A DNA stretch of 64,000 nucleotides from Pseudidiomarina homiensis (GTDB lineage: Bacteria; Pseudomonadota; Gammaproteobacteria; Enterobacterales; Alteromonadaceae). Numbering within the stretch: position 1 is the stretch's first letter; each line of letters starts with the position of its first letter. The notes beneath the pieces are model-generated. The model was not told where the DNA came from. It did not search any database and was given only the letters and a program-made list of their open reading frames with translations. Positions 4,288 to 38,978 of this stretch are shown here, piece by piece. The stretch lies in contig NZ_PIPX01000003.1 of the NCBI RefSeq assembly GCF_003987225.1, positions 62,001 through 126,000 of the forward strand, read 5' to 3'. The position numbers and the translations under genes are program-made.

Positions 4288-4308
4288 ACTAGCAAACAGC
4301 GCTCTTTC

Positions 4309-8868: not shown

Positions 8869-8929
8869 AGCGTACACAAAATTCACAAGGCTCAACATCA
8901 AGCGGTATTGCCTTTCAAGATTTTTTTTA

Positions 8930-8946: not shown

Positions 8947-8955
8947 TTAAGAAAG

Positions 8956-11900: not shown

Positions 11901-12207
11901 CACTAACTTGGACTTCAAATATACCCAAGAGCTTCCTGGGTTTGCTGAAGGCCACAAAGGTGAGTTGTACATTAACGTACGTAACCTGATCGCTATCTTT
12001 GATAAAGACGCTGGTCAGAAACACGTATTGCCATACGGTGACAACGTACGTGAATTGGTAAGTGCTCACATCAACGATGACGGCCAATATGTTTACGGTA
12101 CGCCTTACAACAACCGTGCATTCGACTTGGTCACGCAAGCACCAACTCGCTACCTTCCAGAGCGTTCAACTTGGCAGGCGAAGATCGGTATCCGCTACCG
12201 CTTCTAA
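8956..12207 (+). CDS. Oar-like TonB-dependent outer-membrane receptor (first copy)
   Basis: Large outer-membrane beta-barrel of 1083 residues. The start at 8956 (MSTSLRFSRTASAV) is preferred over 8908 because it gives a normal signal peptide ending near AVAQD and uses the leader AGGA motif also seen in the paralogue. After the signal peptide is a carboxypeptidase-regulatory-like domain (about 30-115; SASMRGEILGPQGSGAANTT), a TonB-box-like ERISVTGQ, a plug domain (about 140-250; KYNSITVDGINQNDDFGLNN) and a long barrel ending in an aromatic residue (IGIRYRF). Its promoter has a Pho box, so expression is expected under phosphate starvation. The ligand is unknown. Confidence 0.88.
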   Translation: MSTSLRFSRTASAVAIALGFASATAVAQDTSASMRGEILGPQGSGAANTTVVIEHVPSGSRTQVNTDGNGSFIASGLRVGGPYRITIDSDVYQDAQYSEVFLKLGETFRLNAQLEAANVERISVTGQAINYAQLNNGSSSSFGEEQIESLPTYSRDLKEIVRLNPLATQLGDGDQLVVAGNNPKYNSITVDGINQNDDFGLNNNGYPTQGSPISIDAIEQITVDVAPFNAKDTNFTGAKVNAVTKSGTNELTGSIFYQYTSDSLAGDAEASKYDEDALPPNVDYEEKTLGFGLGGPIIKDKLFFYVNYETQDESNAPYRGPIGSDAANIANITTEELNEVLDIARNVYGLTDAQLGGWNIPADEEDNKLLVKLDWNISNEHRAAFTYQRTDGNSIRNQYGGDGTLTLSSSWYNNEQILDAYAVQVYSNWSSNFSSDIKLSHKNVEAIQDPLNGRTMGMVTVEVGGRNAIEFGPDYSRHANEGENTTIEFQANGEYLLGDHAIGFGYAFSETDIYNLFVQNALGSWEFDSIEDFRNREAGDFYYAGSLTGDINDAAANFTQGTQALYIQDTWQPTWDLEVMFGVRYERMHAEDKPIYNPNFAARYGFANTENLDGKDLILPRVGFNYQLTDDTKLRGGFGRYAGGRPNVWVSNSYTNNGMTFSQFDRYLADVPWSVFFDNVDPTQVPQEVQDGLLADGYVNAIDPDFDLPSDWRGSLAVDFNNLSIPVLGDDWFASVEYIYTRRKDDVQWKDLTRVPLLDENGDPRTTVDGGRILYVVDDPLDNHTPSGVGDHGFVQRYDLMLTNGDGGKSQIFTTTLGKAWDNGLSMRASYTNQDIQEAVAGSSSTALSNYRYPVALDRQNVRPGTASYQVEHRFMADVTYKTEIFNGYTSTFGLFWERYSGRPWGYVYDSYGDVSFGNQPFGPLGRSSVYLPYIPTGADDSAVAYEDGFGYDQLMEYLQRAGLTGYEGQYLPRNTERGPWTTNLDFKYTQELPGFAEGHKGELYINVRNLIAIFDKDAGQKHVLPYGDNVRELVSAHINDDGQYVYGTPYNNRAFDLVTQAPTRYLPERSTWQAKIGIRYRF

Positions 12208-15900: not shown

Positions 15901-16031
15901 CGGAAGTTGATATTAACGACCAAAACCAGTGGGTATTCGAAGAAATCAACCCACGCATTAACTCTGTGCAAGGCCGCGCTGGCTCTCCATCACTTTGGAG
16001 TGTTCGCTTAGGCTTCCAGTACGACTTCTAA
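12918..16031 (+). CDS. Oar-like TonB-dependent outer-membrane receptor (second copy)
   Basis: A 1037-residue paralogue of the first Oar-like receptor. It has a signal peptide (cleavage near TATAQE), a carboxypeptidase-regulatory-like domain (SSSLRGVVTSENTGQTIANA), a TonB-box-like ERIEVSGRR, a plug (RFNSLTVDGVRTNDNFGLNS; AVTKSGENELFGSVFFDYTN) and a barrel ending in Phe (LGFQYDF). It differs in carrying two plug-region Cys residues (DIQCGGANPRF and GFTACNINAV), absent from the first copy, that could form a disulfide. It lies between tadA and purL, breaking a neighbourhood that is usually contiguous. Its promoter has four phased PhoB half-sites. The ligand is unknown. Confidence 0.88.
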   Translation: MLNNKPSRIAAAVALAIGLSATATAQETSSSLRGVVTSENTGQTIANANVTLRDERTGTSTTLTANANGLFSARGLAVGGPYTLTVTDNQGNSEVIENVFLTLGETENVSVQIAQQSVERIEVSGRRLTMTSGSSSPASNFSLSDLQEQPAANRDIKDVVQIDPRIYINETNARDIQCGGANPRFNSLTVDGVRTNDNFGLNSSGYPTERMPFSYDAIEQVAVELAPFDVQYGGFTACNINAVTKSGENELFGSVFFDYTNDSLTGDELEGEPINIGAFNEKRYGFNGGGALIQDKLFAFVAYEKLEGSDTFDRGPEGANVATPVLGVTQADLDRIAGIARDVYGFEPGGFPSSLPVEDEKFLAKIDWYINQDHRAQFTYNYNDGYSIAESDGDDDELEFSNHFYSRGAEFNSYVAQLYSDWTYNFSTELRAGYSELENAVVPLGGTEVGEVQIRHNGNTIYLGADDSRHSNKLAYDTMFYKLSGTYLYNDHTFTFGYEYESYDVFNLFIQESQGEHRFSSIDDFESGLVNRIIYENAAGTNNPDDGAGQFKYAVNTLYAQDEYYFIDHDLTLTLGLRYDWYTTSDAPTLNQSFQDTYGFANTATLDGEGLIQPRVGMNWVVNDQLELRGGFGLYSGGNPNVWLSNNYSNNGVSLYEANRFGVNLFDLDYGTGSPIIDIPLEMIDEVAEAAGRGPVNALDPNFEIPNEWKFAFGATYVTENDYVLMADFLHTRKQDAAIIRDLRAVQSGTAPDGRPIYARNGSDAFLLTNVDGDAGDQTSISFAISKEHDWGFDWSLAYAWNKAEDVNPMTSSVAYSNYTSVATADAENPGIATSNYEIPHRFTFRGTYTAEWLNGYDTKFSVFGSANKGRPYSFTMNAPVGDITRGRSLLYVPDGMNDSNVVWGDGLSEAQIQEFLAFIQEAGLDQYAGGIAPRNEFNSDWWHKVDLKVEQELPGFMDGHKSSVYFVVDNFTNMLNDDWGVLYEASFPRAVNVAEVDINDQNQWVFEEINPRINSVQGRAGSPSLWSVRLGFQYDF

Positions 16032-27060: not shown

Positions 27061-28011
27061 TTAGAAGCGGTGTTCAAGACCTACAGCGAAGTAAGTTTGC
27101 TCGGCCGCTAAAGTATCCAAGTCGCGGCCAGTGTACCAAGCATACACTTTGGTATTCTTACTAAACTTGTAGTCCGCACCAAAGGCAATAGAGTCATCGT
27201 CGCCGTCAACAAATTCCATCATCTGGTATTGTGCTTTTAAACGCCATTGGCCCAATGCATGTTGTACGCTTGCGACAAAACCATCGGCTTCGTTGGTGCC
27301 CATGACTTCTTGTTGCTGCTGCCACATCAAACCAAACATGGTATCAGCCACTTTGGTATAACCCACGAGACGCTCGATATCATAACCATCAACGTCGCGA
27401 TCGATAGCAGCACCAAAGTAATACGGTGTGTCATCTAAGCCTTCGTCGCCGTAAGTTAACGCAAGTGAATAACCGTCGTCTTGCTCGTCACCCTCGCTTA
27501 ATACCACTGAGCCGGCAATGCGGAACTGTGCGAAAGCAGGTGAATAATAAGACAGGGTATTACTGGTGCGGTTTTCACCCTCAAACAGGGCTTTGACGTC
27601 AGCTTCATAGTCGCTGAACTGATCAATATCACCTTGCACGGTTTTCAGTACGGTGTCACGGCGACCTACGGTGAACTCACCAAAACTACCACGCAAACCC
27701 ACGTACTGGTTGCGTGATTTCAAATTATCATCACCACCTAGATCGGTAAGGTCAACCTGCCATTCTAATTTATAGATGACTTCGAGATCGTCATTGAGCT
27801 GAGCGCCGCCCTTTACGCCGATGCGTGAAGCGTTGCTTTTCAGTTCACTGTCGCTACCTTGCCCATCGTCGCTGCTTTGTAAAGAAACATTCGCGCGACC
27901 ATAAAAGTCGAAACTTACTGGATTCTCGTCCTGAGCTACAGCTACGCCACTAAACAGTGCGAGCGGAAGTACCATCCAAATAGAAGAGTTAACTGTCATA
28001 ACGGTTACCAT
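27061..28011 (-). CDS. Outer-membrane porin, phosphate-starvation controlled
   Basis: General porin of the Gram-negative 16-strand type: signal peptide (cleavage near VAVAQD), then SFDFYGRANVSLQSSDD, LEVIYKLEWQVD, NQYVGLRGSFGEFTVGRRDT and the terminal AVGLEHRF ending in Phe. Length is 316 residues. Two starts are possible (28011, or 27999 four codons on); neither has a strong RBS. Its upstream region carries several phased PhoB half-sites, so it is probably the functional equivalent of a phosphoporin such as PhoE or OprP. Anion selectivity cannot be confirmed from sequence. Confidence 0.88.
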   Translation of the reverse strand: MVTVMTVNSSIWMVLPLALFSGVAVAQDENPVSFDFYGRANVSLQSSDDGQGSDSELKSNASRIGVKGGAQLNDDLEVIYKLEWQVDLTDLGGDDNLKSRNQYVGLRGSFGEFTVGRRDTVLKTVQGDIDQFSDYEADVKALFEGENRTSNTLSYYSPAFAQFRIAGSVVLSEGDEQDDGYSLALTYGDEGLDDTPYYFGAAIDRDVDGYDIERLVGYTKVADTMFGLMWQQQQEVMGTNEADGFVASVQHALGQWRLKAQYQMMEFVDGDDDSIAFGADYKFSKNTKVYAWYTGRDLDTLAAEQTYFAVGLEHRF

Positions 28012-28061
28012 CGTTGCTAAGTTGAGAGTTAAGCAGGCCCTTGCCTACTCAATACGCGCAT

Positions 28062-28103
28062 AGCATATGGCACTTTTATGACAGTTTAATGACTATATGT
28101 CAG
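28062..28103 (-). promoter_or_regulatory. PhoB-box promoter of the porin (proximal cluster)
   Basis: On the minus strand TAGTCAT, CTGTCAT and GTGCCAT begin at an 11-bp period (28089-28095, 28078-28084, 28067-28073). CTGTCAT ends exactly 10 bp before TATGCT (28062-28067), the likely -10. A further CTGACAT lies at 28097-28103, off this register by 3 bp. Confidence 0.8.
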
Positions 28104-28129: not shown

Positions 28130-28147
28130 ATGGCGTATTTATGACGC
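28130..28147 (-). promoter_or_regulatory. Upstream PhoB box of the porin, overlapping the TPR gene 3' end
   Basis: The minus strand reads GCGTCAT-AAAT-ACGCCAT, two half-sites at 11 bp with the consensus-like AAAT linker. The distal half-site includes the stop codon of the TPR gene. It is in 11-bp phase with CTGACAT at 28097-28103, three turns away. Confidence 0.5.
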
Positions 28148-29401
28148 TTGCAGTTGTTTTATCCGTTCTGCTTGCTCTTTTTCTGAGGTTGCATAACGTT
28201 CCCACTGTGCTGCTGCTTTACGCGCATCGTCAAAAGCTTTGGCTTTTGCGAAGGCTTGCAGCGCTGGATTATAGTTCTCTTGTTCTAATTCAGCCATGCC
28301 AATGACCAAGTGCATGGTCCCCGGCTTCTCTAAATTACCCTTGGCAAGTGCGGTCTCGGCAGCAGCGATGGCTTGCGGATAACGTTCCGCATTCAATAGC
28401 ACTTGTGCACGCTGGGCATCCAACTCACCATCATTGCTCAACTCTGCCGCTTGCTCGAGGGCCGCCACAGCACGGTCTGTCTCACGCGCCGCAATCCAGC
28501 TTTGCGCCAGCAGTTTAAGATTACGCAAATCGGCTTCGAGCTTTCCTTCGGCAAGCGCCTGCTCCATCACTTTGCCAGCCTTGTAAGGAATGCCGCCAAA
28601 GAAGTAGCTTTGCACTAACATTTGTAAATCTTGGCCTTTGGTCAGAAAGCCTTGCTGGTATGCAGCTTCAAGCATCGCTAACTGTTGCTCATCATTACCG
28701 AGTTGACCATAGACACCTGCAAGTTGAACCCAGTATTCAGGTTTGTTGAAGTGCTTGATCATTTTTTCTAAGACCGTTGCAACGGCAGCAGTTTGCTCAA
28801 GTTCATAATGAATCGCGCGTTGCAATACGTACCAGTTCTCGTCACCCGCACCGCCGTTTTCTTCGGCGCTAGCAATGGCACGTTGAATCGGCTTGAGTGC
28901 GCGTTGATAATCACCTTTTTGATAAAGTGCTTGGGCGCGCAACACATCTGCCTTTTGCGCCTGGTCGTCACCAACCACTTGCTGCCAACGGTCAAGGTAC
29001 TCGAGCGTAGCGGCATAGTCGCCCTGCCCCAGCGCTAACTGCGCAAGACTGAATAGAGTGTTTTGTTTTAACGCGTCGGGAATCGGATCTTCGTCAACAA
29101 CTTTAGCGAAATACTGAATCGCTTCCGCCAATTGGTCTTTGCCGTAATACATGTAACCGTAGAAGTTCCATAACATGGCACGTTCGTAGCTATTCATACT
29201 ACTGAGCTTCGACTCTACGTTCTTCAGCGCCGCTAAGCCGGCGGTAACATCGCCGTTGTCAGCGAGTTCTTGTGCCCGTGCCAGTTGTGAATACACTTGC
29301 TCACGCAGCGCTGGTACACGCTTCGTCTCTTGAGCGTGTAAAATTTGCATGTTCGCTTGTGCGAGGACGACAAGGGCTAATGCTGTGATTAATTTACGCA
29401 T
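28139..29401 (-). CDS. TPR-repeat periplasmic protein of the TonB operon
   Basis: Last gene of the TonB operon. It has a signal peptide (MRKLITALALVVLAQANMQILHA) and then helical tetratricopeptide-like repeats across the rest of the 420 residues (for example AMLWNFYGYMYYGKDQLAEAIQYFAKVVDEDP-type units). The start at 29401 is chosen because AGGAG lies 7 nt upstream, made from the tonB stop codon (TAG GAG), and because the longer start at 29428 lies inside tonB. Similar TPR genes end TonB2/TtpC operons in Vibrio and Shewanella relatives. A scaffold or partner role for TonB or its receptors is an inference. Confidence 0.85.
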   Translation of the reverse strand: MRKLITALALVVLAQANMQILHAQETKRVPALREQVYSQLARAQELADNGDVTAGLAALKNVESKLSSMNSYERAMLWNFYGYMYYGKDQLAEAIQYFAKVVDEDPIPDALKQNTLFSLAQLALGQGDYAATLEYLDRWQQVVGDDQAQKADVLRAQALYQKGDYQRALKPIQRAIASAEENGGAGDENWYVLQRAIHYELEQTAAVATVLEKMIKHFNKPEYWVQLAGVYGQLGNDEQQLAMLEAAYQQGFLTKGQDLQMLVQSYFFGGIPYKAGKVMEQALAEGKLEADLRNLKLLAQSWIAARETDRAVAALEQAAELSNDGELDAQRAQVLLNAERYPQAIAAAETALAKGNLEKPGTMHLVIGMAELEQENYNPALQAFAKAKAFDDARKAAAQWERYATSEKEQAERIKQLQAS

Positions 29402-29411
29402 GGTTCTTCTC

Positions 29412-30017
29412 CTAACCGTCGATCTCAAAGGTTAAACGGTTTTGTACGCCTTCCACTTCTACCGTTTCGCCGTTGACGACACGCGGTTTGTATTTAAATT
29501 TCACCACTGCATCCAATGCGGCTTGATCAAAAATCTGCTCAGGTTCGGCCTCGACCACACGTGGGTCACGCACGGTACCTTGCTTGGTTACCGTAAACTC
29601 AACCACGACATAGCCTTCAATTCCCCGTTGCAGAGCTCGGCGCGGGTAAGCTGCTTGCACTTTTACAATCGGCAAGTACTCGCCGTCGCTGGTATCAAGG
29701 TTCATGCCACCGGCAAGGCCAGTGTCCGCTTGCGCTACTGCAGAGAAATCATAGCTACCCTCACCTGGGGTGAGTTCACTGCTGTCCATTTGCGGCTGTG
29801 GCAAGTCTTCCGGCGGTTGCTCTGGCTCGGGCGGCCGTTGCGGTTTACGTTCCTTTTCTTGCACCACTTCTTCTGGCTTCACCCGCACAAAGTCGAGCAC
29901 ACTGCCTTTTGGCGGTTCGGTCATTGCGCCTTCACCACCGGTGATAAAGGATTGCATCAAATAGAACAATCCAAGCGTCACTACGGCGGCTACGGCAAGT
30001 GCAGCTAGAAAACGCAT
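29412..30017 (-). CDS. tonB: TonB energy-transducing protein (TonB2-like)
   Basis: Links inner-membrane proton motive force to outer-membrane receptors. A single N-terminal membrane segment (about residues 4-22) is followed by a Pro/Glu/Lys-rich periplasmic spacer (about 50-75) and the C-terminal TonB domain (about 110-200; YPRRALQRGIEGYVVVEFTVTKQG). The 201-residue length and short spacer are typical of the TonB2 class. It begins 3 nt after exbD. The operon is PhoB-boxed, so this TonB is probably reserved for phosphate-starvation receptors. Confidence 0.93.
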   Translation of the reverse strand: MRFLAALAVAAVVTLGLFYLMQSFITGGEGAMTEPPKGSVLDFVRVKPEEVVQEKERKPQRPPEPEQPPEDLPQPQMDSSELTPGEGSYDFSAVAQADTGLAGGMNLDTSDGEYLPIVKVQAAYPRRALQRGIEGYVVVEFTVTKQGTVRDPRVVEAEPEQIFDQAALDAVVKFKYKPRVVNGETVEVEGVQNRLTFEIDG

Positions 30018-30020
30018 AAG

Positions 30021-30428
30021 CTATTCGTCCTGTGCAGCAATCGAGACATCATAAACGCCAGCGGCACGGGCTGCGTCCATCACTTTAATAAGCGTTTCGG
30101 TGGTCGCCAGCTTATCGGCTTGAATCACTACCGAACCTTGCGGGTTCTCAGCGTAAAGCCGTTCGATATTGGCTTGCACGGCACGCACATCTACCTGACG
30201 CTTGTTGATCCAGATTTCACCGGTCTCACTAATGGCCACCAAAATATTGGCGCGATCCTTTTGCACTGCGGTTGCTGCGTCTGGACGATTAACGTCGATA
30301 CCCGCTTCCTTAACAAAGGTGGCGGTCACAATAAAGAAGATCAGCATGATGAACACCACGTCGAGCATGGGCGTCATGTCAATTTGCGTTTCTTCTTCGT
30401 CGATCAAATTGGCAAAATGTTGTTTCAT
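30021..30428 (-). CDS. exbD: ExbD-type biopolymer transport protein
   Basis: Proton-channel partner of ExbB. It has one membrane segment near the N terminus with the critical acidic residue in IDMTPMLDVVFIMLIFFIVTATF (Asp about residue 23) and a small periplasmic domain. The 135-residue length is standard. It lies between exbB (11 nt upstream) and tonB (3 nt downstream) in a six-gene operon. Confidence 0.94.
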   Translation of the reverse strand: MKQHFANLIDEEETQIDMTPMLDVVFIMLIFFIVTATFVKEAGIDVNRPDAATAVQKDRANILVAISETGEIWINKRQVDVRAVQANIERLYAENPQGSVVIQADKLATTETLIKVMDAARAAGVYDVSIAAQDE

Positions 30429-30439
30429 AAATAAGCCCT

Positions 30440-30970
30440 CTAGTGGTGTTCCATCAGCATGCGGTCTTCAAGCTTTAAGCGTTCCCGCTTTGCTGTGCGC
30501 TGCAGCCAAGTGGTGGCAAACACCCCCGACAAAGCGCCGACCATGCCAGCCATGGTTGGAATTGTTGCTTTCGATACGCCAGCTGCCATCGAGCGAGCGT
30601 TACCTGTGCCAGCGATAGCCATCACATCAAACACTTCAATCATGCCGGTTACGGTGCCCATCAAACCAAGCAGTGGACAAAGTGCCACTAAGGCTTGTAA
30701 GACAGGAACTCGACCACCTAAAGCGAGCGATACGCGTGAAATCATGGCTTGCCGAATCTGTTCCGCATTCCACGATGATTTATCATCACGCTGCTGCCAT
30801 TTTTCGAGCACACGACGCTTCTCTTGCTGATGACCGCGGCTGTAGTAAAAAACGCGCTCCAGAATCATCAACCACATCACGAAGATGAGGATCCCGATGA
30901 CCACTAACACCTGGCCACCGGTTTCAACAAAGTCCTGAATCGCACTGTAAAAGTCGATGAAGAACACCAT
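30440..30970 (-). CDS. exbB: ExbB-type proton channel subunit
   Basis: MotA/TolQ/ExbB-family membrane protein of 176 residues with three hydrophobic segments (about 18-36, 90-112 and 130-152). The conserved LCPLLGLMGTVTGMIEVF and GVSKATIPTMAGMVGAL stretches line the ion channel in this family. It starts 2 nt after the TtpC-like gene and is followed by exbD. It forms the motor that energises TonB. Confidence 0.94.
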   Translation of the reverse strand: MVFFIDFYSAIQDFVETGGQVLVVIGILIFVMWLMILERVFYYSRGHQQEKRRVLEKWQQRDDKSSWNAEQIRQAMISRVSLALGGRVPVLQALVALCPLLGLMGTVTGMIEVFDVMAIAGTGNARSMAAGVSKATIPTMAGMVGALSGVFATTWLQRTAKRERLKLEDRMLMEHH

Positions 30971-30972
30971 GT

Positions 30973-32328
30973 TTAGTGACTCCGCTCAGAACGCTCCGCG
31001 ATAATGCCAGAGGCCTGTTCTTGCAAGACATGCACAATATTTCGGCTGCGTGTGTTTAATGTCGCGAACAACAGCGTCATTGGAATCGCGACAACCAAGC
31101 CCAGTACAGTTGTCACCAAAGCCTGCGAAATACCGCCCGCCATGAGTTTCGGGTCACCGGTACCAAACAGAGTGATGGCTTGGAAGGTATTGATCATACC
31201 GGTTACCGTACCCAACAAACCGAGCAGCGGTGCGACCACTGAAATGATTTTGATAAAGGTTAAGTTGCGCGTGATTTTCGGCACTTCGCGTAAAATCGCC
31301 TCACTGAGTTTCAGTTCAAGGGTCTCGGTATCAACTTGCGGATACTTGTCTTGCACCGCCATAACCCGTCCCAGCGGATTGTCCTGTTTAGCCTCATTTT
31401 GTTTCAGCTGACGCTTCACTTTACCGCCCATTAGGGTAAGCGTGACAAAGCGCTCTAACGCAATCAGCAAGCCAATCGCACCTAGCGCAAGAATGATGTA
31501 ACCCACCGTTGAACCTTGCTCGATACGCTCCATGGTTCCTGGGGCTTGAACCAACAAGCCAAGAATCGAACCGCCGGTTGGGTCTAAGCCAAAGCGCACT
31601 GGATTGTCATCGCCTTGCTCTAACGCTTCAACTGTCGATAAATAACGGCCACTTGGCTGACGCACGAGTTCTGCGACAGCGTCAGTGCCTGGGATAAGCT
31701 CCAAGTATTTACCGTCAGCTACCATGTTGAAGGTACCAACCCGAACTACTGGCTTGGTGACTTTCTCACCGCTCGCCAAAGTTACGGTGGTTTCAAATTC
31801 GCTGACTTTACCCGACTCGGTCATTTCCTGTTGTAAGGCAAACCAAACCGACTCGATTTCTTCAATACTGGCGAGCTTTGAACTTGAGCCCATTTTCTGC
31901 GCAAGGTCGCTCAAGGCATCGCTGCGCCCCGGATACTCCACCGATACGTAGGAGTTCTGCAGCGTACTTGCGGTATCACCGGCGACTTGCTGCAACACAC
32001 CAAACAATTCTTTTAACGACCCCATACGCTGAGTGAGTGCTTCTTCGAGCGCCGCCAAATCACGTTCATTGGCTTCAAATTGACCTTCCAGCTCAGCACT
32101 GAGTGCTTCGAGTTGATCGCGTTGAGCAATCGCGTCACGTAAAATTTGTTGTTGCTGTTCAGCTTGGGCACGAAAGCGAGCTTCACGCTCCTGATTCGCC
32201 TGCGATTGCGCAAACTTGCCTTCCTGCAATTGCTGCAATAGCTGATCAAGGTTCACCGGTTCCTGCGCCAGCACCGGAGTACTCAACGCCAGCACCGCCG
32301 CAACGAGTAAATGTTTTAGCTTCAACAT
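30973..32328 (-). CDS. TtpC-like MotA/TolQ/ExbB protein with periplasmic coiled coil
   Basis: Extended ExbB-family protein of 451 residues. A signal peptide (cleavage near VLAQE) precedes a long helical region rich in Gln and Glu (about 25-120), a mixed domain (about 120-260), and the three-segment channel domain (about 275-435; VVAPLLGLLGTVTGMINTFQ and GISQALVTTVLGLVVAIP). In Vibrio, TtpC is the extra component essential for TonB2 function, and this protein has the same architecture and operon position. It is 3 nt from the DUF3450 gene and 2 nt from exbB, indicating translational coupling. Confidence 0.9.
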   Translation of the reverse strand: MLKLKHLLVAAVLALSTPVLAQEPVNLDQLLQQLQEGKFAQSQANQEREARFRAQAEQQQQILRDAIAQRDQLEALSAELEGQFEANERDLAALEEALTQRMGSLKELFGVLQQVAGDTASTLQNSYVSVEYPGRSDALSDLAQKMGSSSKLASIEEIESVWFALQQEMTESGKVSEFETTVTLASGEKVTKPVVRVGTFNMVADGKYLELIPGTDAVAELVRQPSGRYLSTVEALEQGDDNPVRFGLDPTGGSILGLLVQAPGTMERIEQGSTVGYIILALGAIGLLIALERFVTLTLMGGKVKRQLKQNEAKQDNPLGRVMAVQDKYPQVDTETLELKLSEAILREVPKITRNLTFIKIISVVAPLLGLLGTVTGMINTFQAITLFGTGDPKLMAGGISQALVTTVLGLVVAIPMTLLFATLNTRSRNIVHVLQEQASGIIAERSERSH

Positions 32329-32331
32329 GGG

Positions 32332-33123
32332 TTATTCTCCTGCTTGGGTGTCGGCGTGGAAAATCGGCAGCATGAGCAAATCAGGCGCTAGCTGTTTACG
32401 TGCAATCCGCAAAGCTTCTTGCACATTCGATGCATAGCTCGAATCCAGTGCTTGCCACTCACGTTGCTCCTGGTTCCATACACCCATGGTGTCACCGTTG
32501 CGCGTCTTATAAATCAGTACCGTGCGGCCAACGCGCAAGAACTCGACGTCTTGGCTTTGCCCGTCAATCTCCTTGGCACCGTTATAGGCTTCGATGGTGC
32601 GGCCATATTCAGATTCGATTTGGTAGGCTTCCATAACGCGACGGAATTTTTCCGAAACGTCAACATCCGCGCGGTCCATTAAGTCCTGCAGACTTGCGAT
32701 ACGGTTGGTGCGTTCTTCCTGCAAGAACGGCACATCAAGCTCGACAAAGGTGGCTAAGCTATCGATCATACGCAGCATCAGCGGCGTGATCTGGCGCTCT
32801 ACGACGCTCACTTCGTCGATCGAGCTATTCAAATCACCCTTTTCGGTTTGTTGCGAGTCAATTTGCTTTTGCAATTGCTGCACATAAACCTCTAGACCTT
32901 CGATTTGACGGCTGATTTGTTTGTACTGCTGCACGCGCTCTTGCGTGGTGTCAGCAATCTTATCGACAGTAAGTTGTGAGGAGCGCGCGGCTTGGTTGAT
33001 TTCGTTAGCAGCATCGACCACAGGGTCAAGTGCTTGCTCTTGCGCGGTTACTTGCGGACTGGCAACGCCAACGGTGGCTAAAAAGCTTGCCACCAACAGC
33101 GTGCGAGTGAAACATGGGTTCAT
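32332..33123 (-). CDS. DUF3450 family periplasmic coiled-coil protein
   Basis: First gene of the TonB operon. It has a signal peptide (MNPCFTRTLLVASFLATVGVASPQVTA) and then a long coiled coil (about residues 50-130; QQYKQISRQIEGLEVYVQQL) and a mixed C-terminal part with GRTVLIYKTRNGDTMGVW. DUF3450 proteins are repeatedly found before TtpC/ExbB/ExbD/TonB genes; their mechanism is not established. The start at 33123 is preferred over 33138 because it has AAGG about 9 nt upstream and begins the signal peptide. The upstream DNA holds five phased PhoB half-sites and an inverted repeat. Confidence 0.88.
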   Translation of the reverse strand: MNPCFTRTLLVASFLATVGVASPQVTAQEQALDPVVDAANEINQAARSSQLTVDKIADTTQERVQQYKQISRQIEGLEVYVQQLQKQIDSQQTEKGDLNSSIDEVSVVERQITPLMLRMIDSLATFVELDVPFLQEERTNRIASLQDLMDRADVDVSEKFRRVMEAYQIESEYGRTIEAYNGAKEIDGQSQDVEFLRVGRTVLIYKTRNGDTMGVWNQEQREWQALDSSYASNVQEALRIARKQLAPDLLMLPIFHADTQAGE

Positions 33124-33131
33124 GGAAACAC

Positions 33132-33162
33132 CTTGCACACGTTGTGAATGATGGTGTGCAAG
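33132..33162. promoter_or_regulatory. Inverted repeat between the -10 and start codon of the TonB operon
   Basis: CTTGCACAC (33132-33140) and GTGTGCAAG (33154-33162) form a perfect 9-bp inverted repeat with a 13-bp centre. The right arm touches the -10 hexamer and the left arm includes the AAGG ribosome-binding sequence. Transcription should start inside the repeat, so it is more likely a protein operator than an RNA hairpin. I do not recognise the regulator. Confidence 0.5.
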
Positions 33163-33215
33163 ATACGTCAGTTCTATGACAGCTTGGTGACTGTATTATG
33201 GCAGTTTTATGTCAG
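33160..33215 (-). promoter_or_regulatory. PhoB-box promoter of the TonB operon (five phased half-sites)
   Basis: In transcription order CTGACAT, CTGCCAT, CAGTCAC, CTGTCAT and CTGACGT occupy 33209-33215, 33198-33204, 33187-33193, 33176-33182 and 33165-33171, each start 11 bp from the next. CTGTCAT ends exactly 10 bp before TATCTT (33160-33165), the likely -10. The distal half-site contains the ybdG stop codon. This is the longest array in the window. Confidence 0.88.
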
Positions 33216-34486
33216 GATGAATCTTTTGTGCCAGTTTCATGTAAGTTTCGTGTCATTTCCCGCATATCGACCCCGCTGGGGTGCTGGAATACACGCAGCC
33301 CAAACTCTGGCAAAATCGCTAACAAGTGATCGAAAATATCGGACTGGATACTTTCGTACTCGGTCCATGCTGTGGTGTTGGTAAAACAATAAACTTCAAT
33401 CGGTAAACCGTCAGAAGTAGGGTTCAACTGACGTACCATCAAGGTCATCTCTTGGTGCACACGTTCGTTATTTTCCAAATACTTTTTCACGTAAGCGCGG
33501 AACGTACCGATGTTGGTAATTCGGCGGGTATTGACCGGCTCTTTACCCTCATCTTTGAGCTGTTGATTCCAGTCGTCGATCTCTGCTTGCTTGTCTTTCA
33601 GGTAATCCTTGAGCAAGCGGAAGCGCTTCACCGCTTTCATCTCATCTTCAGTGAGAAAGTGCACGCTTTGCTGGTCCAGTAACAAACTCCGTTTAATCCG
33701 TCGACCACCCGACTCTTGCATGCCCCGCCAGTTCTTAAACGGGTCCGAAATAAAGCGGCGTGTCGGAATAAAGGTAATCGTCTTATCCCAGTTCTGCACT
33801 TTCACCTGATGCAGGGCAATATCAATGACATCACCGTCGGCATTCAGATTCGGCATTTCGACCCAATCACCCACGCGGATAATGTCATTCGAGGTGATCT
33901 GTACGCTGGCTACAAGGCTCAGTAAGGTGTCTTGGAACACCAACATCAGCACTGCGGCCATTGCGCCTAAACCGGAAAGCAAGATAACCGGCGACTTGTC
34001 GATCAGCACCGCAATCATCAGAATCGCGGCAACGGCGTAGATAACAATCTTCGCGACTTGAATGTAACCTTTGATCGGCCGCTGATGCGCATCTGGCTGA
34101 CGTTCATACAGCATATTGACGATGGTCAACGTGCCGCTAATCGCTCGCGCAATAGTAATGACAATGAATGCGTAGCAAACATTGGTGACGACAATTGTCA
34201 GTTCTTCAACAAGGTTAGGTACCGAGGTGATGCCAAAGGCAATGACTAAAGCAGGAACCACATTGGCAATGCGCGCAACGATATTGCGTTCTATCGCTTG
34301 GCGGTCTTTGCCGACTGGCGTGTAGCTAATAAGGTTGAGCAGTCCGCGCAGCAGAATTTTTTTCACCACAAAATTGGCGATCCAAGCGCCAAGTAGCAAC
34401 AAGCCTAGCTTGGTTAGCGTGTCCATATCGGGGCGTTCAATGAGCCACTGTTCTGCGGTTTCGAGTTTTTCTTTTAAATCCTGCAT
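33212..34486 (-). CDS. ybdG: YbdG-type mechanosensitive ion channel
   Basis: MscS-superfamily membrane protein (miniconductance MscM type), 424 residues. Several N-terminal membrane segments lead to the pore and beta domain with DTLLSLVASVQITSNDIIRVGDWVEMP and then DGDVIDIALHQVKVQNWDKT. The stretch FKNWRGMQESGGRRIKRS is distinctive of YbdG. The start at 34486 (MQDL) agrees with E. coli YbdG from memory; the 23 codons upstream are GAACAGC repeats. It has no clear Shine-Dalgarno sequence. It protects cells during osmotic downshock; no link to phosphate is evident other than adjacency. Confidence 0.9.
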   Translation of the reverse strand: MQDLKEKLETAEQWLIERPDMDTLTKLGLLLLGAWIANFVVKKILLRGLLNLISYTPVGKDRQAIERNIVARIANVVPALVIAFGITSVPNLVEELTIVVTNVCYAFIVITIARAISGTLTIVNMLYERQPDAHQRPIKGYIQVAKIVIYAVAAILMIAVLIDKSPVILLSGLGAMAAVLMLVFQDTLLSLVASVQITSNDIIRVGDWVEMPNLNADGDVIDIALHQVKVQNWDKTITFIPTRRFISDPFKNWRGMQESGGRRIKRSLLLDQQSVHFLTEDEMKAVKRFRLLKDYLKDKQAEIDDWNQQLKDEGKEPVNTRRITNIGTFRAYVKKYLENNERVHQEMTLMVRQLNPTSDGLPIEVYCFTNTTAWTEYESIQSDIFDHLLAILPEFGLRVFQHPSGVDMREMTRNLHETGTKDSS

Positions 34487-34515
34487 AGTTCGCTGTTCGC
34501 TGTTGGCTGTTCGCT
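34487..34515. repeat. GAACAGC-type heptamer repeat before ybdG
   Basis: The plus strand reads as degenerate tandem GTTCGCT/GTTGGCT units directly against the ybdG ATG, occupying the position where a ribosome-binding site would lie. The same heptamer, in the order GCGAACAGCGAC-TAGC, makes the pstS terminator at 4257-4291. Both copies are close to a REP pair. Confidence 0.6.
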
Positions 34516-34560
34516 CGCTAGTGATTAGAAACCATCTAGGCTTAGGTTTCAACAAGTAGC

Positions 34561-34704: not shown

Positions 34705-37338
34705 TCAGAACGCGTAGCTGTATTCCAGACTGATACCAGTACCAACCGTACGACTCTGAATCGTTCGACCGTTTTGCTCGATCTCAACATTGTCACCCAG
34801 TATGTTCTGTACTTTAAACTTCAGTTTCGAATTGAAGTCTGGGTAGTACGTATAAACCGCATCAAGACTATGGAACGGTTGTTCGAATGCATCATCGATA
34901 CCGACTTCACCCTGCTTCACACCTGCGAAGGCGATGCGTTCACCGGCGACGTTGTAGATCAACGAGGCACTGTGTTCGCCGTTGAGCGAGTCATAACCGA
35001 GCTGCAAGTTGGCCACATATTTCGAATGGCCAGTCATGCGGCGGGTGTTATTGGTCAACTCAACGTTACCGGTATTGGCGATGCTGATTTCAGAATCAGA
35101 CAAGGTCAGGTTACCGGTCACAAACAGGCCGTCGGCGATACGGGTTAAGTCTTTTAAGAATTCAAACTCAACGCCATAGACTTCACCAGCTTGACCATTC
35201 AAGAAAGTGATAACCCGGTCCGAATCGGTACCTTTGGCTTCCACTGCCTCGATCGGATTAGCAAGATCCTTGTAGAACGCCGCTACCGAGTAATTTTCGC
35301 CAGAAGGAAGATACCATTCCCAACGCACATCAAAGTTATCGATATCGGTGGTCATCAACTCGCTGTTACCGCGCACTTTGAAGTTGGTAATTGGGTCAAC
35401 GAAAATGACTTCTGTCAGTTCACGCAAGTCAGGACGCACCACAGTACTTCCGTAACCAAAGCGCAACTGCATTTCGTCATTGAGCTGGTAGGTTAACGCG
35501 AGCGAACCATAAACATCGTCTTCCATACGACCGGCTTCAGCGGGATCGCCAATCATGGTCATATCGCGAATGTCGAGCTGTGCGGCAACTTGCGTATACT
35601 GCTCCCAGCGCAAACCACCGCTGACTCGCCAATCCTGGTTCACTTGTACATCAACCAAGCCATAGCCTGCTTCAATTTGCTGTGCGGCAAGGTAGTTAGG
35701 ATCAGTCGCTGTTGGCGCACCAAATAAGGCCAAGCCGAAGTCAGCGTCGGTGATGTTGGCATCACTGAAAAGATCGTTATAACCAACATTGACCAGGTCT
35801 TCGTTATTAACCTGTTCAGCACTCAAGGCGAAACGACGCGAGTACGATGAACGTGCTTTCTTCGAAACTTGTCCGCCACCTTTGACTAAGATTTCCATCT
35901 CGGCAAGATAGAGTGGCAGCTCACCATCAACACGCCAGTCTTGCGCATCATCTTGCAAGGTCTGGAACTGCATCGTGGTTGCCGTACGGGTTTGTTGGAA
36001 GGCTAAATCGCCAATACCTTCGCCTAAGTCGCGGTTATTGATGCGACGGTAAAACACTTCACCTGGTGCATCACGATTCGCGCGTGAGTCGGCGTACTGC
36101 CAGTCCAACGCAAAGCCCCATAGCTCGGGGAAGTAATGCGAACCACGGATTTGGTTCGTTAACAGCTCACGCTGCTCATAACGAATGTCGGTGTCGTAAT
36201 AACTCAAACCATCTTCGTTGATGGAGTTCAGCGTTTCGATACCACCTTGTTCGACGCGGTCGGCGGTATTACGTAAGAAAATAGTCGATGTCTCAAGCTT
36301 GTGATAATCACCTACTTGGATACCAAAGTTAAGCAATCCACTAAGTTCAACGTCTTGGGTGGTAACACGTGTTTCACTACGTTGGTTAACCACCGCCTCG
36401 CCGTTGGCGATACCTAGCACTTCTTCCGTTTCTTCGTTATTTGACCAACCACTGTCATAGTCAACTGCCGCCAAGAAACCAAAGGTAATGTCGTTGCCAA
36501 GGTCATAGTTTGAGCCATAAGTGACAGAACCTTTGATATCCGGTGCCATCGACTTGGTGTAAACCTCGTTTTGAGTATTCAGCGACGCGGCTAAGCTACG
36601 GTTAATCTCTGCCGCTTCAGCCAACGAAATGTTCTCAAAGCTAGCGATGCTTGCGGTATTGATAGACTCTTGATAGCGCGCCAACGCTGACCACATTTCA
36701 GGTGATAGCGCACGAGTACCGTCATCTTTACCAAGCCAGTCATCACTGCCGCCAGCGTAGCTCAAACCATCGTCAGAAAGGTTGGTATTCCAGCCAGTAC
36801 CGATCGAAAGATCAAAGACTTCCTCGGTTGGAATGGAAACCGTACGGATATCCACGTTACCGCCACCAAAGTTGGCCGGCATATCTGGTGAATAGGACTT
36901 TTGTACCGACATACTTTCGATAATGCTTGCTGGGAACATATCTAAAGGAATGACGTTACGGGTTGGATCGGGCGAAGGTACAGACGCACCATTCAGTTGC
37001 GTACTAGAATAGCGCTCACCCAGGCCACGAACATAAATAAATTTACCGTCAACAAGGGTCAGGCCCGTTACACGGCGCAAGGCCGAAGCCGCGTCGCTGT
37101 CACCGGTGCGTGAAATCTGCTCAGCACCAAGAATATCGGCAACGAAAGCTTGTGCTTTGCGCTCTTCAACCACTGCCGCAGCCGAACCTTGCAAACGTGT
37201 TCCTGTGGTTACGACTTCTTCAATGGTAGCGTCTTCACTGGTCGACGTATCTTGTTGTGCATAAGCAATAGGTCCTGACAACGCAAGTGCGATGGCAAGG
37301 CCTAATTTACTTTGAGTTAAAACAGCCTGCTTTTTCAT
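34705..37338 (-). CDS. TonB-dependent receptor, phosphate-starvation controlled
   Basis: Outer-membrane receptor of 877 residues. The start at 37338 gives MKKQAVLTQSKLGLAIALAL with cleavage near AYAQQ and has GGAG 6 nt upstream; the longer start at 37386 would spoil the signal peptide. The TonB box is IEEVVTTG (about residue 35). The plug has LGAEQISRTGDSDAASALRRVTGL and YVRGLGERYSSTQLNGASVPSPDP, the typical plug of the subgroup that pairs with a beta-helix lipoprotein. The barrel ends in Phe (ISLEYSYAF). It follows the lipoprotein gene by 69 nt with no terminator, so it is under the same four-half-site PhoB array. The ligand is unknown. Confidence 0.9.
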   Translation of the reverse strand: MKKQAVLTQSKLGLAIALALSGPIAYAQQDTSTSEDATIEEVVTTGTRLQGSAAAVVEERKAQAFVADILGAEQISRTGDSDAASALRRVTGLTLVDGKFIYVRGLGERYSSTQLNGASVPSPDPTRNVIPLDMFPASIIESMSVQKSYSPDMPANFGGGNVDIRTVSIPTEEVFDLSIGTGWNTNLSDDGLSYAGGSDDWLGKDDGTRALSPEMWSALARYQESINTASIASFENISLAEAAEINRSLAASLNTQNEVYTKSMAPDIKGSVTYGSNYDLGNDITFGFLAAVDYDSGWSNNEETEEVLGIANGEAVVNQRSETRVTTQDVELSGLLNFGIQVGDYHKLETSTIFLRNTADRVEQGGIETLNSINEDGLSYYDTDIRYEQRELLTNQIRGSHYFPELWGFALDWQYADSRANRDAPGEVFYRRINNRDLGEGIGDLAFQQTRTATTMQFQTLQDDAQDWRVDGELPLYLAEMEILVKGGGQVSKKARSSYSRRFALSAEQVNNEDLVNVGYNDLFSDANITDADFGLALFGAPTATDPNYLAAQQIEAGYGLVDVQVNQDWRVSGGLRWEQYTQVAAQLDIRDMTMIGDPAEAGRMEDDVYGSLALTYQLNDEMQLRFGYGSTVVRPDLRELTEVIFVDPITNFKVRGNSELMTTDIDNFDVRWEWYLPSGENYSVAAFYKDLANPIEAVEAKGTDSDRVITFLNGQAGEVYGVEFEFLKDLTRIADGLFVTGNLTLSDSEISIANTGNVELTNNTRRMTGHSKYVANLQLGYDSLNGEHSASLIYNVAGERIAFAGVKQGEVGIDDAFEQPFHSLDAVYTYYPDFNSKLKFKVQNILGDNVEIEQNGRTIQSRTVGTGISLEYSYAF

Positions 37339-37407: not shown

Positions 37408-38877
37408 TTAGTCGCGCAGGCCTACGGTCCAGCCGTTGGTCCAATCGTCGTCTTCACTCACCGCGCCGATGAAGTCAACATCATCGAAGAACGGGTCAAT
37501 GCTGCTTAAGTCAGTTTTTGGTGTAACGGTGACTGGGGCGCCAGAAGCATCAGTCATGTCGCTTGCAGTAACGTAACCTGAAGTCAGCACGCTTGCGCCA
37601 GCGCTAAGCGTTACGTTGCCAGTGCCACCTTCAAACCAAGTTTGTGTTTCGGTGTCTTTGAAGTTTTCAGTACAAGCAACCACTGAGTTTTCAATCGACA
37701 AATCACCGTTTGCTGCTGCAGTAAGAGTTGCTGCATCATCGATTTCCAAACACTCGCCACGCGCTTCCGTAATCAAGAAGTTATACATCGCGCCGTGCGT
37801 ACCTTCACGGACCAACACGCCTTCTGATTCGTCAGAGCCGTCAGTTGCAGTGAGTGAGCCGATTGAAGTGAAGTTAGCGATAATCGGATCTGAATAAGGT
37901 GTAGCGTCGTTGTTGCCGCTGTTACCGTCGGCTTCGATAGCACGGTTGGCACGGTCATCAGCATGTTTCACAAGGATGTATTGAATCTTACCTTGCCAGC
38001 CGTCTGCCCAGTCCAATGAATCATCATCGTTACCGGTCAGAACAACATTTTTCACGTTGGCAGCGCCACCGAAGAACTCGATGCCATCGTCCAAGTTATT
38101 GTGAACTTGGATGTACTCTAATGTGGTACCAGAGCCTACAGTGTAGAAAGTGATGCCGTTAAGCTCGTTGTCGAGAGAAACTTCGTAACCGGCGTACTTC
38201 ACCAATACATAGCGCATGATGCCTGAGTCGTCAGCATTGTCGTCACCGCCGTAGAAGCCAGCGCCGCCCTCACCTTGCAAGACGCAGTTTGCCAGATCGT
38301 TTTGGTCACACTTGTTCGAAATACCTAAACCATTGATAACCACACCGCCCCACAAACCACGCGCATTGTCGGCAATATCAAAACCTTCAACTTCTTGTAC
38401 AGAAGTGAACGTAATCGGTGCGTTGCGGTTACCTTCTGCAATGATGTTGGCACCGCGTGCGATACGAACGAACGAGTCGCCGTCTTCAAATGCAAGGGTT
38501 ACACCTGCATCGATCGTCAAGGTAGGACCTTCGCGGTTCACGTCAGCAGTCGCTTCAACGTTTTCACCAATGTATAAACCATTTGGGAAAATGTGCGCGC
38601 CACCTGGTAATTCAACCAAACGAATGTCGCTGCTCACTGGGTTCTCTGGAGTTGAGAAGCTACGCGGATAAACGCAGTCTGCGCCGATTTTCTCACCACG
38701 AATGGTGGTGCCTGATGACTCATACGATGCACAGTTGTTGGTGTCTGGCGTACTACCGCCACCTTCATTCACTGAGTTATCGATTGAAGTAGGGGTTAGG
38801 TTGATGTCACCACCACAGCCAGCAAGCAGCATAGAGGCGGTAAAGGCAGAAAGAGCGAAAGCTTTAGTGCGGTTCAT
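37408..38877 (-). CDS. Beta-helix lipoprotein paired with a TonB-dependent receptor
   Basis: Predicted lipoprotein of 489 residues (lipobox LLAGC near residue 20). After a low-complexity linker the chain shows repeated short strands and Asn/Gly-rich turns (GITFYTVGSGTTLEYIQVHNNLDDGIEFFGG; NVVLTGNDDDSLDW), typical of a right-handed parallel beta-helix. It is very acidic, with Asp clusters that could bind calcium. Cysteines occur in pairs. The gene is first in a two-gene operon with a TonB-dependent receptor, a recurring arrangement in marine gammaproteobacteria. I infer a surface ligand-capture or processing role. The start has GGAG 8 nt upstream. Confidence 0.75.
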   Translation of the reverse strand: MNRTKAFALSAFTASMLLAGCGGDINLTPTSIDNSVNEGGGSTPDTNNCASYESSGTTIRGEKIGADCVYPRSFSTPENPVSSDIRLVELPGGAHIFPNGLYIGENVEATADVNREGPTLTIDAGVTLAFEDGDSFVRIARGANIIAEGNRNAPITFTSVQEVEGFDIADNARGLWGGVVINGLGISNKCDQNDLANCVLQGEGGAGFYGGDDNADDSGIMRYVLVKYAGYEVSLDNELNGITFYTVGSGTTLEYIQVHNNLDDGIEFFGGAANVKNVVLTGNDDDSLDWADGWQGKIQYILVKHADDRANRAIEADGNSGNNDATPYSDPIIANFTSIGSLTATDGSDESEGVLVREGTHGAMYNFLITEARGECLEIDDAATLTAAANGDLSIENSVVACTENFKDTETQTWFEGGTGNVTLSAGASVLTSGYVTASDMTDASGAPVTVTPKTDLSSIDPFFDDVDFIGAVSEDDDWTNGWTVGLRD

Positions 38878-38922: not shown

Positions 38923-38978
38923 ACTTTAAGGACGTTATGTGACACCTAGGTGACGCGTATGTGAACACTTGATGACAA
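38923..38978 (-). promoter_or_regulatory. PhoB-box promoter of the lipoprotein/TonB-dependent receptor operon (four phased half-sites)
   Basis: In transcription order TTGTCAT, TGTTCAC, GCGTCAC and GTGTCAC lie at 38972-38978, 38961-38967, 38950-38956 and 38939-38945, all 11 bp apart. The last ends exactly 10 bp before TAAAGT (38923-38928), the likely -10. The start codon is 46 nt further on. The array also sits upstream of the divergent histidine kinase gene. Confidence 0.85.

Follow-up and report, generated by a model that had tools for sequence, protein, structure and literature searches.

A six-gene operon for a TonB motor of the Ttp class in Pseudidiomarina homiensis is preceded by a phased array of predicted PhoB half-sites, and a comparison of this promoter and its genomic company across relatives makes it likely that the operon encodes a phosphate-starvation TonB machine. 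Its main client would be the TonB-dependent receptor encoded at 34705-37338 together with the neighbouring lipoprotein encoded at 37408-38877. Coordinates refer to the window, the stretch of 64,000 nucleotides that was analysed (contig NZ_PIPX01000003.1, positions 62,001 to 126,000).

The motor operon and its promoter

The operon occupies 28139-33123 on the minus strand and comprises, in this order, a DUF3450 protein (TtpB), TtpC, ExbB, ExbD, TonB and a TPR protein (TtpD), which is the complete gene set of a Ttp-type TonB system in one operon. Pfam domains and intergenic gaps of at most 11 bp bear out the tight packing described in an earlier, sequence-only reading of this DNA. The operon and its promoter consist of the following features.

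32332-33123, minus strand: ttpB-like first gene, DUF3450 protein (PF11932, E 3.4e-88)
30973-32328, minus strand: ttpC-like gene (PF01618, E 1.6e-30; PF11932, E 7.1e-9)
30440-30970, minus strand: exbB, short MotA_ExbB protein (PF01618, E 6.3e-21)
30021-30428, minus strand: exbD (PF02472, E 2.6e-32)
29412-30017, minus strand: tonB, TonB_C domain (PF03544, E 3.4e-21)
28139-29428, minus strand: ttpD-like gene, TPR protein (PF13432, E 1.1e-13), TTG start as listed
33161-33215, minus strand: predicted PhoB array of four solid 11-bp half-sites (33215-33172) and an overlapping fifth, conserved in orthologues
33160-33165, minus strand: -10 box TATCTT, 10 nt after the half-site CTGTCAT (33182-33176)

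TtpC is a long MotA_ExbB protein in which a weak DUF3450-like periplasmic part is fused to an ExbB/TolQ-type channel, and the ttpD-like gene likely starts downstream of the listed TTG. The six-gene order is retained in 79 of the 80 named loci (best 80 of 401), the exception, L231, being cut by a contig end. A second Ttp system in the same genome (C1:862-867 kb) has no Pho array, and its TonB is 35% identical to that of the operon. For ttpB, sequence and orthologues make the ATG at 33123 a more likely start than the GTG at 33138; the promoter is therefore placed at about 33139-33215, in agreement with its earlier placement.

The PhoB regulon motif, as known from E. coli, consists of CTGTCAT-like half-sites in direct repeats with an 11-bp period, and at E. 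coli phoA and pstS the last half-site replaces the -35 element, 10 nt ahead of the -10 box. Both features recur at the motor promoter. The array (33215-33161, minus strand) reads CTGACATAAAA CTGCCATAATA CAGTCACCAAG CTGTCATAGAA CTGACGTATCT in strict 11-bp register; its first half-site overlaps the mscS stop codon, and its fourth lies exactly 10 nt upstream of the -10 box, the same distance as at pstS and pstC of the window. Five phased half-sites had been proposed originally. Four of them are solid. The fifth one (33171-33161) shares nucleotides with the spacer and the -10 box, and PhoB probably does not use it as a site of its own. The proposal that this is the strongest array in the window held with a half-site scorer of hand-set, untrained weights based on the consensus, in which the motor array tops the two-, three- and five-unit scores.

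Such sites are rare in the genome. A 19-nt pattern of two half-sites with at most three mismatches occurs at eight places in 2.61 Mb, all on contig C3 and seven of them within the window, and the pattern read backwards occurs at none. Two half-sites followed by N10 and a -10 box gave nine matches at eight promoters of the window, all 55-76 nt ahead of a start in the supplied gene list, against a mean of 2.05 and a maximum of 4 in 20 block shuffles of the window. Besides the motor, pstS, pstC, phoB, two Oar-like receptors, a porin and the lipoprotein carry this architecture. A Pho-like site at C3:43733, ahead of a 579-aa open reading frame without a Pfam match, was treated as probable chance. 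The neighbouring genes are listed below.

115-5316, minus strand: pst-type genes, with permease components at 115-1770 and 1785-4028 and a binding protein at 4309-5316 (PF00528, PF12849)
5436-6740, minus strand: phoR (PF11808, E 7.8e-25)
6770-7456, minus strand: phoB-like response regulator gene beside phoR (PF00072/PF00486)
8908-12207, plus strand: Oar-like TonB-dependent receptor 1, Pho promoter (Pfam; promoter scan)
12918-16031, plus strand: Oar-like TonB-dependent receptor 2, Pho promoter (Pfam; promoter scan)
27061-28011, minus strand: porin (Porin_4) behind the motor, own Pho promoter (Pfam; promoter scan)
28062-28095, minus strand: Pho half-sites and -10 box TATGCT of the porin (sequence scans)
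33212-34555, minus strand: MscS-type channel between receptor and motor (Pfam)

The pst-type genes, which we infer to be pstA, pstC and pstS, have Pho promoters at 5382 and 4092, and the phoB promoter has the -10 box AATAAT in the N10 architecture. Among the 80 named loci (best 80 of 401), an MscS match upstream of the motor is confined to the window's genus, where one of the loci bears the name Idiomarina loihiensis SN11.

Conservation of the array and the question of iron

Co-occurrence of the Pho array with the operon in related genomes had been suggested as a check, and its outcome favours phosphate control. At a threshold of at most 1/100 shuffles, the array precedes the orthologous operon (at least 48% identity) in all 25 loci of the genus, the window's own included, and in 20 of 24 from other genera of the family, the four failures being L082, L098, L102 and L103. 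By comparison, it precedes a paralogous Ttp operon at 1 of the 42 promoters fetched, a subset of the existing ones, and none of 18 other DUF3450 matches. In the 80 named loci (best 80 of 401), a set that overlaps the former, the array is present in 77 at 2/200 shuffles or fewer and in all 80 at 10/200 or fewer. The shuffles judge each sequence alone, ignoring kinship, and some of the start codons, chosen by script, may be incorrect. The spacing is also kept: [CTA]TGTCA[CT]-N10-TA[TA]NNT is found in 74 of these best 80 of 401 loci, and the next commonest distance from half-site to -10 box in seven. With the paralogous operon as control, this comparison strongly supports a predicted phosphate control of the motor operon.

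The best-studied Ttp system points to a different use. TonB2 of Vibrio vulnificus (ttpB2-ttpC2-exbB2-exbD2-tonB2-ttpD2) is described as a single operon of the same six components, likewise led by the DUF3450 protein and ended by the TPR protein; it is iron-induced, carries iron compounds and is required, with TonB1 as a redundant partner, for using siderophores (PMC6957404). By this precedent the operon of the window could be an ordinary iron or haem motor with a Pho-like sequence by accident, a reading to which we give very little credence. In contrast to the TonB2 operon as described there, the operon of the window has a Pho promoter. The best Fur-box match at that promoter is 10/19 and is equalled in 97 of 100 shuffles, so the earlier failure to recognise a Fur box is upheld, and Fur control of the operon was rejected, no site being found at the promoter. 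An accident also accords poorly with an array and a spacing to the -10 box that match pstS and pstC and are kept across many genera. The tree likewise separates the two kinds of system: the 49 motor orthologues form one group (support 99/94), apart from the system-2-like group (100/97), in a tree where several of the other rows are long-branched and the root is arbitrary. The system-2-like group probably includes a Vibrio TonB2 (L162), the only one of its rows with a strong Fur-like site. The motor probably powers phosphorus scavenging and not iron uptake, because of its apparent phosphate switch and its co-inheritance with a receptor and a lipoprotein.

The receptor-lipoprotein pair

The pair lies upstream of the motor, beyond the MscS-type gene.

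34705-37338, minus strand: TonB-dependent receptor (PF00593/PF07715; open reading frame listed to 37386)
37408-38877, minus strand: right-handed beta-helix lipoprotein, ElpS-like (sequence shows signal peptide and lipobox)
38923-38978, minus strand: Pho array and -10 box (TAAAGT) of the pair, weaker but recurring in relatives

Pfam and an AlphaFold model (pLDDT 73.7, TBDT fold) show that the receptor has an importer's plug and barrel. Its structure search returned many TBDTs of low identity and no hint of a substrate. The lipoprotein model has a pLDDT of 87.8 with weak beta-helix matches, and searching solved structures by sequence with the lipoprotein, the receptor and the DUF3450 profile gave nothing useful. 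No array lies directly upstream of the receptor gene; that of the pair sits before the lipoprotein gene. Among 53 lipoprotein promoters (53 of the 54 loci with a match, L270 running off the end), the array is present in 18 at 2/200 shuffles or fewer and in 34 at 10/200 or fewer, and the N10 architecture in 26. This is a cleaner test than a smaller one that gave 13 of 28 at 1/100 or fewer, in which at least five rows were invalid, begun inside fused genes (L211, L216, L217, L219, L221), and the sequence at three loci was too short.

Motor (DUF3450, at least 48% identity) and receptor (E 1e-60) occur together in 49 of 58 family genomes, the motor alone in none, the receptor alone in one and neither in eight (Fisher p 5e-9), and the counts for the lipoprotein are identical. 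Since these genomes are related, one genome per genus was also counted, which yielded 25, 0, 1 and 7, respectively (p 2e-6). Gaps in assemblies may account for some absences; G053, for example, is 81% complete. In 54 of the 80 named loci (best 80 of 401), both members of the pair are encoded upstream of the motor at a distance of no more than 10 kb. The pair was not seen within 10 kb in the other 26, of which 22 are Idiomarina-type and three have less than 10 kb of upstream sequence; in G010 and G014 it is located about 76 and 67 kb from the motor. The pair also exists without the motor, inside the family in G035, in the same order outside it in 4 of 39 genomes (G062, G072, G095, G096), and in more distant genomes. 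Another TonB is therefore probably able to energise the pair, and an exclusive dependence on this motor is unlikely.

These exceptions bear on whether the motor has a special partner at all. PhoB could instead boost a second, non-specific motor that serves any receptor, raised because several TonB-dependent receptors are made together in low phosphate. The Pho promoters of the two Oar-like receptors fit this idea (3 of 26 receptors have an array at 1/100 shuffles or fewer, namely these two and C1:1118067), as do the pairs without a motor outside the family and the 26 of the best 80 of 401 loci without a nearby pair. We nevertheless judge it unlikely, given that the motor is always accompanied by the pair (49 of 49 among the 58 family genomes), and that an Oar-like receptor is matched in seven of the nine family genomes without the motor, some of these matches being distant (36-40% identical). 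The original proposal of a motor dedicated to phosphorus and serving the co-regulated receptors thus narrows to one co-inherited receptor-lipoprotein pair; the Oar-like receptors are less tightly linked.

Related systems and biological meaning

Precedents are known both for the architecture, in the Vibrio Ttp systems, and for phosphate control, in Pseudomonas aeruginosa. The exbB2-exbD2-tonB4 genes of the PUMA3 locus are transcribed in phosphate starvation from a promoter bound by PhoB, also need the sigma factor VreI and adjoin a two-partner secretion system (PMC4971064); they are reported as still uncharacterised (PMC7035377). Their description does not name TtpB, TtpC or TtpD, unlike the six-gene motor here. 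The sequence-only reading was not aware of a phosphate-specific TonB motor of this class; a phosphate-controlled TonB motor as such thus has a precedent in P. aeruginosa (PMC4971064, PMC7035377), but no report of a Pho-controlled motor of the Ttp class was found in the literature searched.

Two further Ttp systems lack a clear regulation by iron. The TonB2 cluster of Teredinibacter turnerae has homologues of ttpB, ttpC, exbB, exbD, tonB and ttpD, is not clearly iron-regulated and has a use beyond iron, since its tonB2 acts in growth on cellulose as well as for iron; unlike for the motor here, phosphorus goes unmentioned, 'phosph' being absent from that paper's text (PMC10734418). TonB3 of V. 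vulnificus and relatives has the six Ttp genes with a receptor gene in front, is not iron-regulated, is turned on in serum or a certain minimal medium, and has a function reported as unknown (PMC6957404, PMC10734418). DUF3450 proteins scoring 264-287 bits against the Pho-clade profile were found in 10 of 150 genomes, presumed Vibrionaceae (next match 215); all ten loci have a receptor gene in front, and from arrangement and rarity we infer that they are TonB3. They differ from the motor here in that none of the ten ttpB promoters passes the shuffles and the N10 architecture is absent at the ttpB and receptor promoters of all ten. Their receptors, which do not match receptor 34705 at E 1e-4, belong to another family, whereas 54 of the 80 named loci (best 80 of 401) have a receptor of the 34705 family ahead of the motor.

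The pair itself resembles, in arrangement and description, ElpS/Cc0171 of Caulobacter crescentus and the FI/FII lipoproteins of Flavobacterium, in each of which a lipoprotein beside a TonB-dependent receptor is linked to phosphate starvation. ElpS is phosphate-starvation-induced, elpS/cc0171 lie with type II secretion genes, and cc0171 is reported as constitutive (PMC2996285). The FI/FII lipoproteins, which occur with TBDTs, are described as polygalacturonase-like, with 31-36% identity to the protein from Caulobacter (PMC8115612). As described, neither has a dedicated TonB motor beside it, whereas the pair of the window lies near the Ttp motor. The two genes are adjacent in the window, and a receptor match was found in 17 of 18 distant-relative regions, hand-chosen from the matches and presumably from Alphaproteobacteria. 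In five distant-relative loci with tested neighbours, type II secretion genes come after the pair (GspD in 5/5), as in the elpS/cc0171 arrangement; among the neighbouring open reading frames tested in L335, L343, L347, L348 and L349, no type II secretion domain was found. The motor might accordingly power a release or display of surface proteins by the pair and not uptake, and overproduction of ElpS indeed goes along with higher secreted phosphatase activity (PMC2996285). This seems improbable, as receptor 34705 is built like an importer, with plug and barrel, and no type II secretion domain was found in the part of the window's proteins scanned with Pfam.

In the favoured reading, that of a phosphate-starvation machine, PhoB would bind the phased array ahead of ttpB in low phosphate and drive transcription of the six genes, as the conserved promoter suggests. 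By their family roles, TtpC, ExbB and ExbD would form proton-driven channels, and these, together with TonB and two periplasmic proteins, TtpB and TtpD, would energise the outer membrane. Co-inheritance, co-regulation and the ElpS/Cc0171 precedent suggest that a phosphorus-containing compound is probably caught at the cell surface by the lipoprotein and passed to receptor 34705; the motor may power the Oar-like Pho receptors too.

The usual view of TonB motors is that they are shared and linked to iron. A PhoB-controlled motor that is found in many marine genera and co-inherited with one receptor-lipoprotein pair would show an energiser dedicated to phosphorus scavenging. Because marine growth is often limited by phosphorus, the substrate of the pair would be of ecological interest. 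We lean towards the view that Alteromonas, Idiomarina and their relatives possess a self-contained PhoB-controlled importer for phosphate starvation, in which a beta-helix surface lipoprotein of one to three domains, its receptor and a Ttp motor of their own take up a phosphorus compound whose size keeps it from passing porins. If so, a Ttp motor would have a phosphorus purpose, the ElpS/Cc0171-type pair would be given a purpose as well, and the vibrio TonB3 might, as a testable idea, likewise be reserved for the receptor encoded ahead of it.

Motor operon and its promoter

Two features of the minus strand are at issue.

28139-33138, minus strand: motor operon of six closely packed genes, from domain matches of the products
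33215-33161, minus strand: PhoB half-sites in strict 11-bp register before the first motor gene, from sequence reading and the half-site scorer

The motor products are, in order, a DUF3450 protein, a long MotA/ExbB protein with a weakly DUF3450-like periplasmic part, ExbB, ExbD, TonB and a TPR protein, and the same gene set is named ttpB-ttpC-exbB-exbD-tonB-ttpD in Vibrio (PMC6957404, in part). Pseudidiomarina sp. CB1 has a counterpart of the DUF3450 protein with 99% identity. The 2.61-Mb genome, with the window on its contig C3, encodes two Ttp motors, three further TonB_C proteins (one a Peptidase_M56 fusion) and 26 plug-domain receptors; the window itself includes phoB, phoR and pst-type genes.

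The sequence-only reading had counted five phased PhoB half-sites ahead of this operon. The strict 11-bp register was confirmed, and the fourth half-site, CTGTCAT, stands exactly 10 nt before TATCTT, but the fifth overlaps this N10 spacer and the -10 box and, judged from its position, is probably not a PhoB site in its own right. When the window was scanned for two half-sites followed by N10 and a -10 box, nine hits appeared at eight promoters, namely those of pstS, pstC, the motor operon (two registers), two Oar-like receptors, a porin, phoB and a beta-helix lipoprotein. All nine lie 55-76 nt ahead of a start, and 20 block shuffles gave a mean of 2.05 hits and a maximum of 4. At a lower threshold, where 4.2 hits are expected, a tenth appeared at 50845 with no listed gene behind it. 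Genome-wide, the two-half-site pattern with at most three mismatches occurs at eight places, seven of them in the window, and the pattern read backwards at none.

The absence of a Fur box, also part of the earlier claim, was upheld: the best Fur-like site at the motor promoter matches 10/19 positions, is equalled by 97/100 shuffles, and none stands out. At the paralogous second Ttp system of the same genome the best match is 13/19 (6/100 shuffles), and Fur control is not established there either. Among 109 motor promoters tested, the sole strong Fur-like site (15/19) belongs to L162, a system-2-like locus from a genome taken for a Vibrio.

Several neighbouring genes were recorded in passing. 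An MscS-type channel gene (33212-34555) lies between the upstream receptor and the motor, its stop codon overlapping the first Pho half-site. The porin follows directly behind the motor with its own Pho promoter, CTGTCAT-N10-TATGCT (27061-28095 for gene and promoter together), and a match is found behind the motor in those Idiomarina and Pseudidiomarina loci with sufficient sequence. Beside phoB, divergent to the first Oar-like receptor, an endonuclease/exonuclease/phosphatase-family protein (7542-8744) is a possible phosphodiesterase within the same regulon. Elsewhere in the genome, a third receptor promoter (L015, G000:C1:1118067) passes the array test with a score of 26.4 and 0/100 shuffles, with no obvious full Pho box.

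Conservation of the Pho array

Orthologues of the DUF3450 protein, defined by 48% identity or more, were compared in their upstream regions among 97 genomes, own included, an array being accepted when matched by at most 1/100 dinucleotide shuffles. Arrays were found at the orthologous motor in 25/25 loci of the genus, with the own locus counted, and in 20/24 loci of other genera of the family; they were found at 1/42 paralogous Ttp operons whose upstream sequence was fetched and upstream of none of 18 other DUF3450 hits. In an overlapping set, the best 80 of 401 named loci (Pseudidiomarina, Idiomarina, Alteromonas, Paraglaciecola, Glaciecola, Bowmanella and others), 77/80 passed at no more than 2/200 shuffles and 80/80 at no more than 10/200. 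The architecture [CTA]TGTCA[CT]-N10-TA[TA]NNT is present in 74 of these best 80, and the other spacings between 4 and 20 nt each reached 7/80 at most. In a tree of 68 DUF3450 proteins the 49 Pho orthologues form one group (99/94), separate from ten system-2-like sequences (100/97). The earlier observation of a six-gene TonB/Ttp operon under a Pho-type promoter was right, and on these promoter comparisons phosphate control of the motor appears well supported.

The family of G077, taken for Vibrionaceae, was also searched for relatives, 150 genomes being scored against a Pho-clade DUF3450 profile. Ten genomes (L365-L374) carry a second DUF3450 protein at 264-287 bits, the next match reaching 215, and from arrangement and rarity we infer that these loci are TonB3, a system whose expression is reported not to be regulated by iron and whose function is given as unknown (PMC10734418, PMC6957404, both in part). 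A receptor gene stands ahead of the six genes in 10/10, with no match to receptor 34705 of the window at E 1e-4. None of 12 ttpB promoters (the ten and two of a lower-scoring type) passed the array shuffles, and the N10 architecture was found at neither the ttpB nor the receptor promoters of the TonB3-like loci, the latter scored without shuffles.

Co-inheritance of motor and receptor pair

Upstream of the motor lie a TonB-dependent receptor (34705-37338) and the beta-helix lipoprotein (37408-38877), both on the minus strand. Among 58 family genomes, 49 have both motor and receptor 34705, eight have neither, one (G035) has the receptor alone and none the motor alone (Fisher p 5e-9); the lipoprotein gave identical counts. 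With one genome per genus the association persisted (25 both, 0 motor only, 1 receptor only, 7 neither; p 2e-6). The second Oar-like receptor, 12918, gave 49/0/7/2 in the same order (p 0.02) at a cut-off of E 1e-40 that admits relatives of 36-40% identity. G004, a member of the genus, is without motor, receptor and lipoprotein together and retains an Oar-like receptor of 71% identity.

In 54 of the best 80 of 401 named loci the 10 kb ahead of the motor hold the lipoprotein and then the receptor, in that order. The pair was not seen there in the other 26 of these 80, 22 of them Idiomarina-type and three with less than that length of sequence upstream; pair and motor lie about 76 kb apart in G010 and about 67 kb apart in G014. 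Lipoprotein promoter arrays are weaker, with 18/53 passing at no more than 2/200 shuffles, 34/53 at no more than 10/200, and the N10 architecture in 26/53.

The receptor also occurs without the motor, in G035 and in 4/39 same-order genomes outside the family (G062, G072, G095, G096). Another TonB may therefore support the receptors, and can probably power this one in those genomes. Of the proposed TonB motor for phosphorus, the scavenging role is retained as the best reading, with the adjoining pair as main client, but exclusivity is made unlikely by these motorless receptors.

The lipoprotein-receptor pair and its likely role

The lipoprotein, which carries a signal peptide and a lipobox, is modelled as a right-handed beta-helix (mean pLDDT 87.8); no PDB structure matched the model at 0.001 or better, the best reaching E 3.3e-3. 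Among Alteromonas relatives (L251-L304) the number of its domains varies from one (482-532 aa) to two (913-942 aa) or three (1354-1362 aa), and a homologue is present in 51/398 genomes drawn from the phylum, own and its family included. In 18 regions hand-chosen from such genomes, a receptor match adjoins or lies near the homologue in 17 (cut by the region end in L344 and L346) and is missing from L345.

At five loci from the remotest of these genomes, which are probably Alphaproteobacteria, the genes following the pair include GspD in 5/5, extending to GspC-D-E-F in L340 and GspC-D-E in L336, the arrangement reported for Caulobacter elpS/cc0171 (PMC2996285). Among the tested ORFs neighbouring the pair at five other loci (L335, L343, L347, L348, L349), none showed a domain of type II secretion. 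That the pair acts in release or display of surface proteins, powered by the motor, and not in uptake, is very improbable. Phosphorus uptake is the preferred reading. Phosphate starvation induces ElpS in Caulobacter, cc0171 being constitutive (PMC2996285, in part), and in Flavobacterium two of four related phosphate-induced lipoproteins are encoded downstream of phosphate-induced receptors (PMC8115612, in part).

Other TonB_C proteins were noted as well. In L343, from a genome of the same class but another order, a small one (9129-9968) follows the pair and may be a different private TonB. TonB_C also forms the C-terminal domain of Peptidase_M56 proteins in L347 (447-1685) and L050 (684-1838), one of the two near the lipoprotein-receptor pair in another family.

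Non-iron use of Ttp motors is not new in itself, because the Ttp-type tonB2 of Teredinibacter also serves growth on cellulose (PMC10734418, in part). The nearest precedent for phosphate control of a motor is exbB2-exbD2-tonB4 of P. aeruginosa (PMC4971064, PMC7035377, both in part). A search of mainly open-access papers, judged by title and abstract start, found no description of a PhoB-controlled Ttp-type motor, and the words 'phosphate' and 'phosphorus' are absent from an Alteromonas macleodii iron/carbon transcriptome paper (PMC7190382). Motor, regulator and type of receptor pair are each known; no description of the three combined was found. The preferred reading makes this motor an energiser of phosphorus scavenging, with the adjoining ElpS/Cc0171-like pair as its main client.
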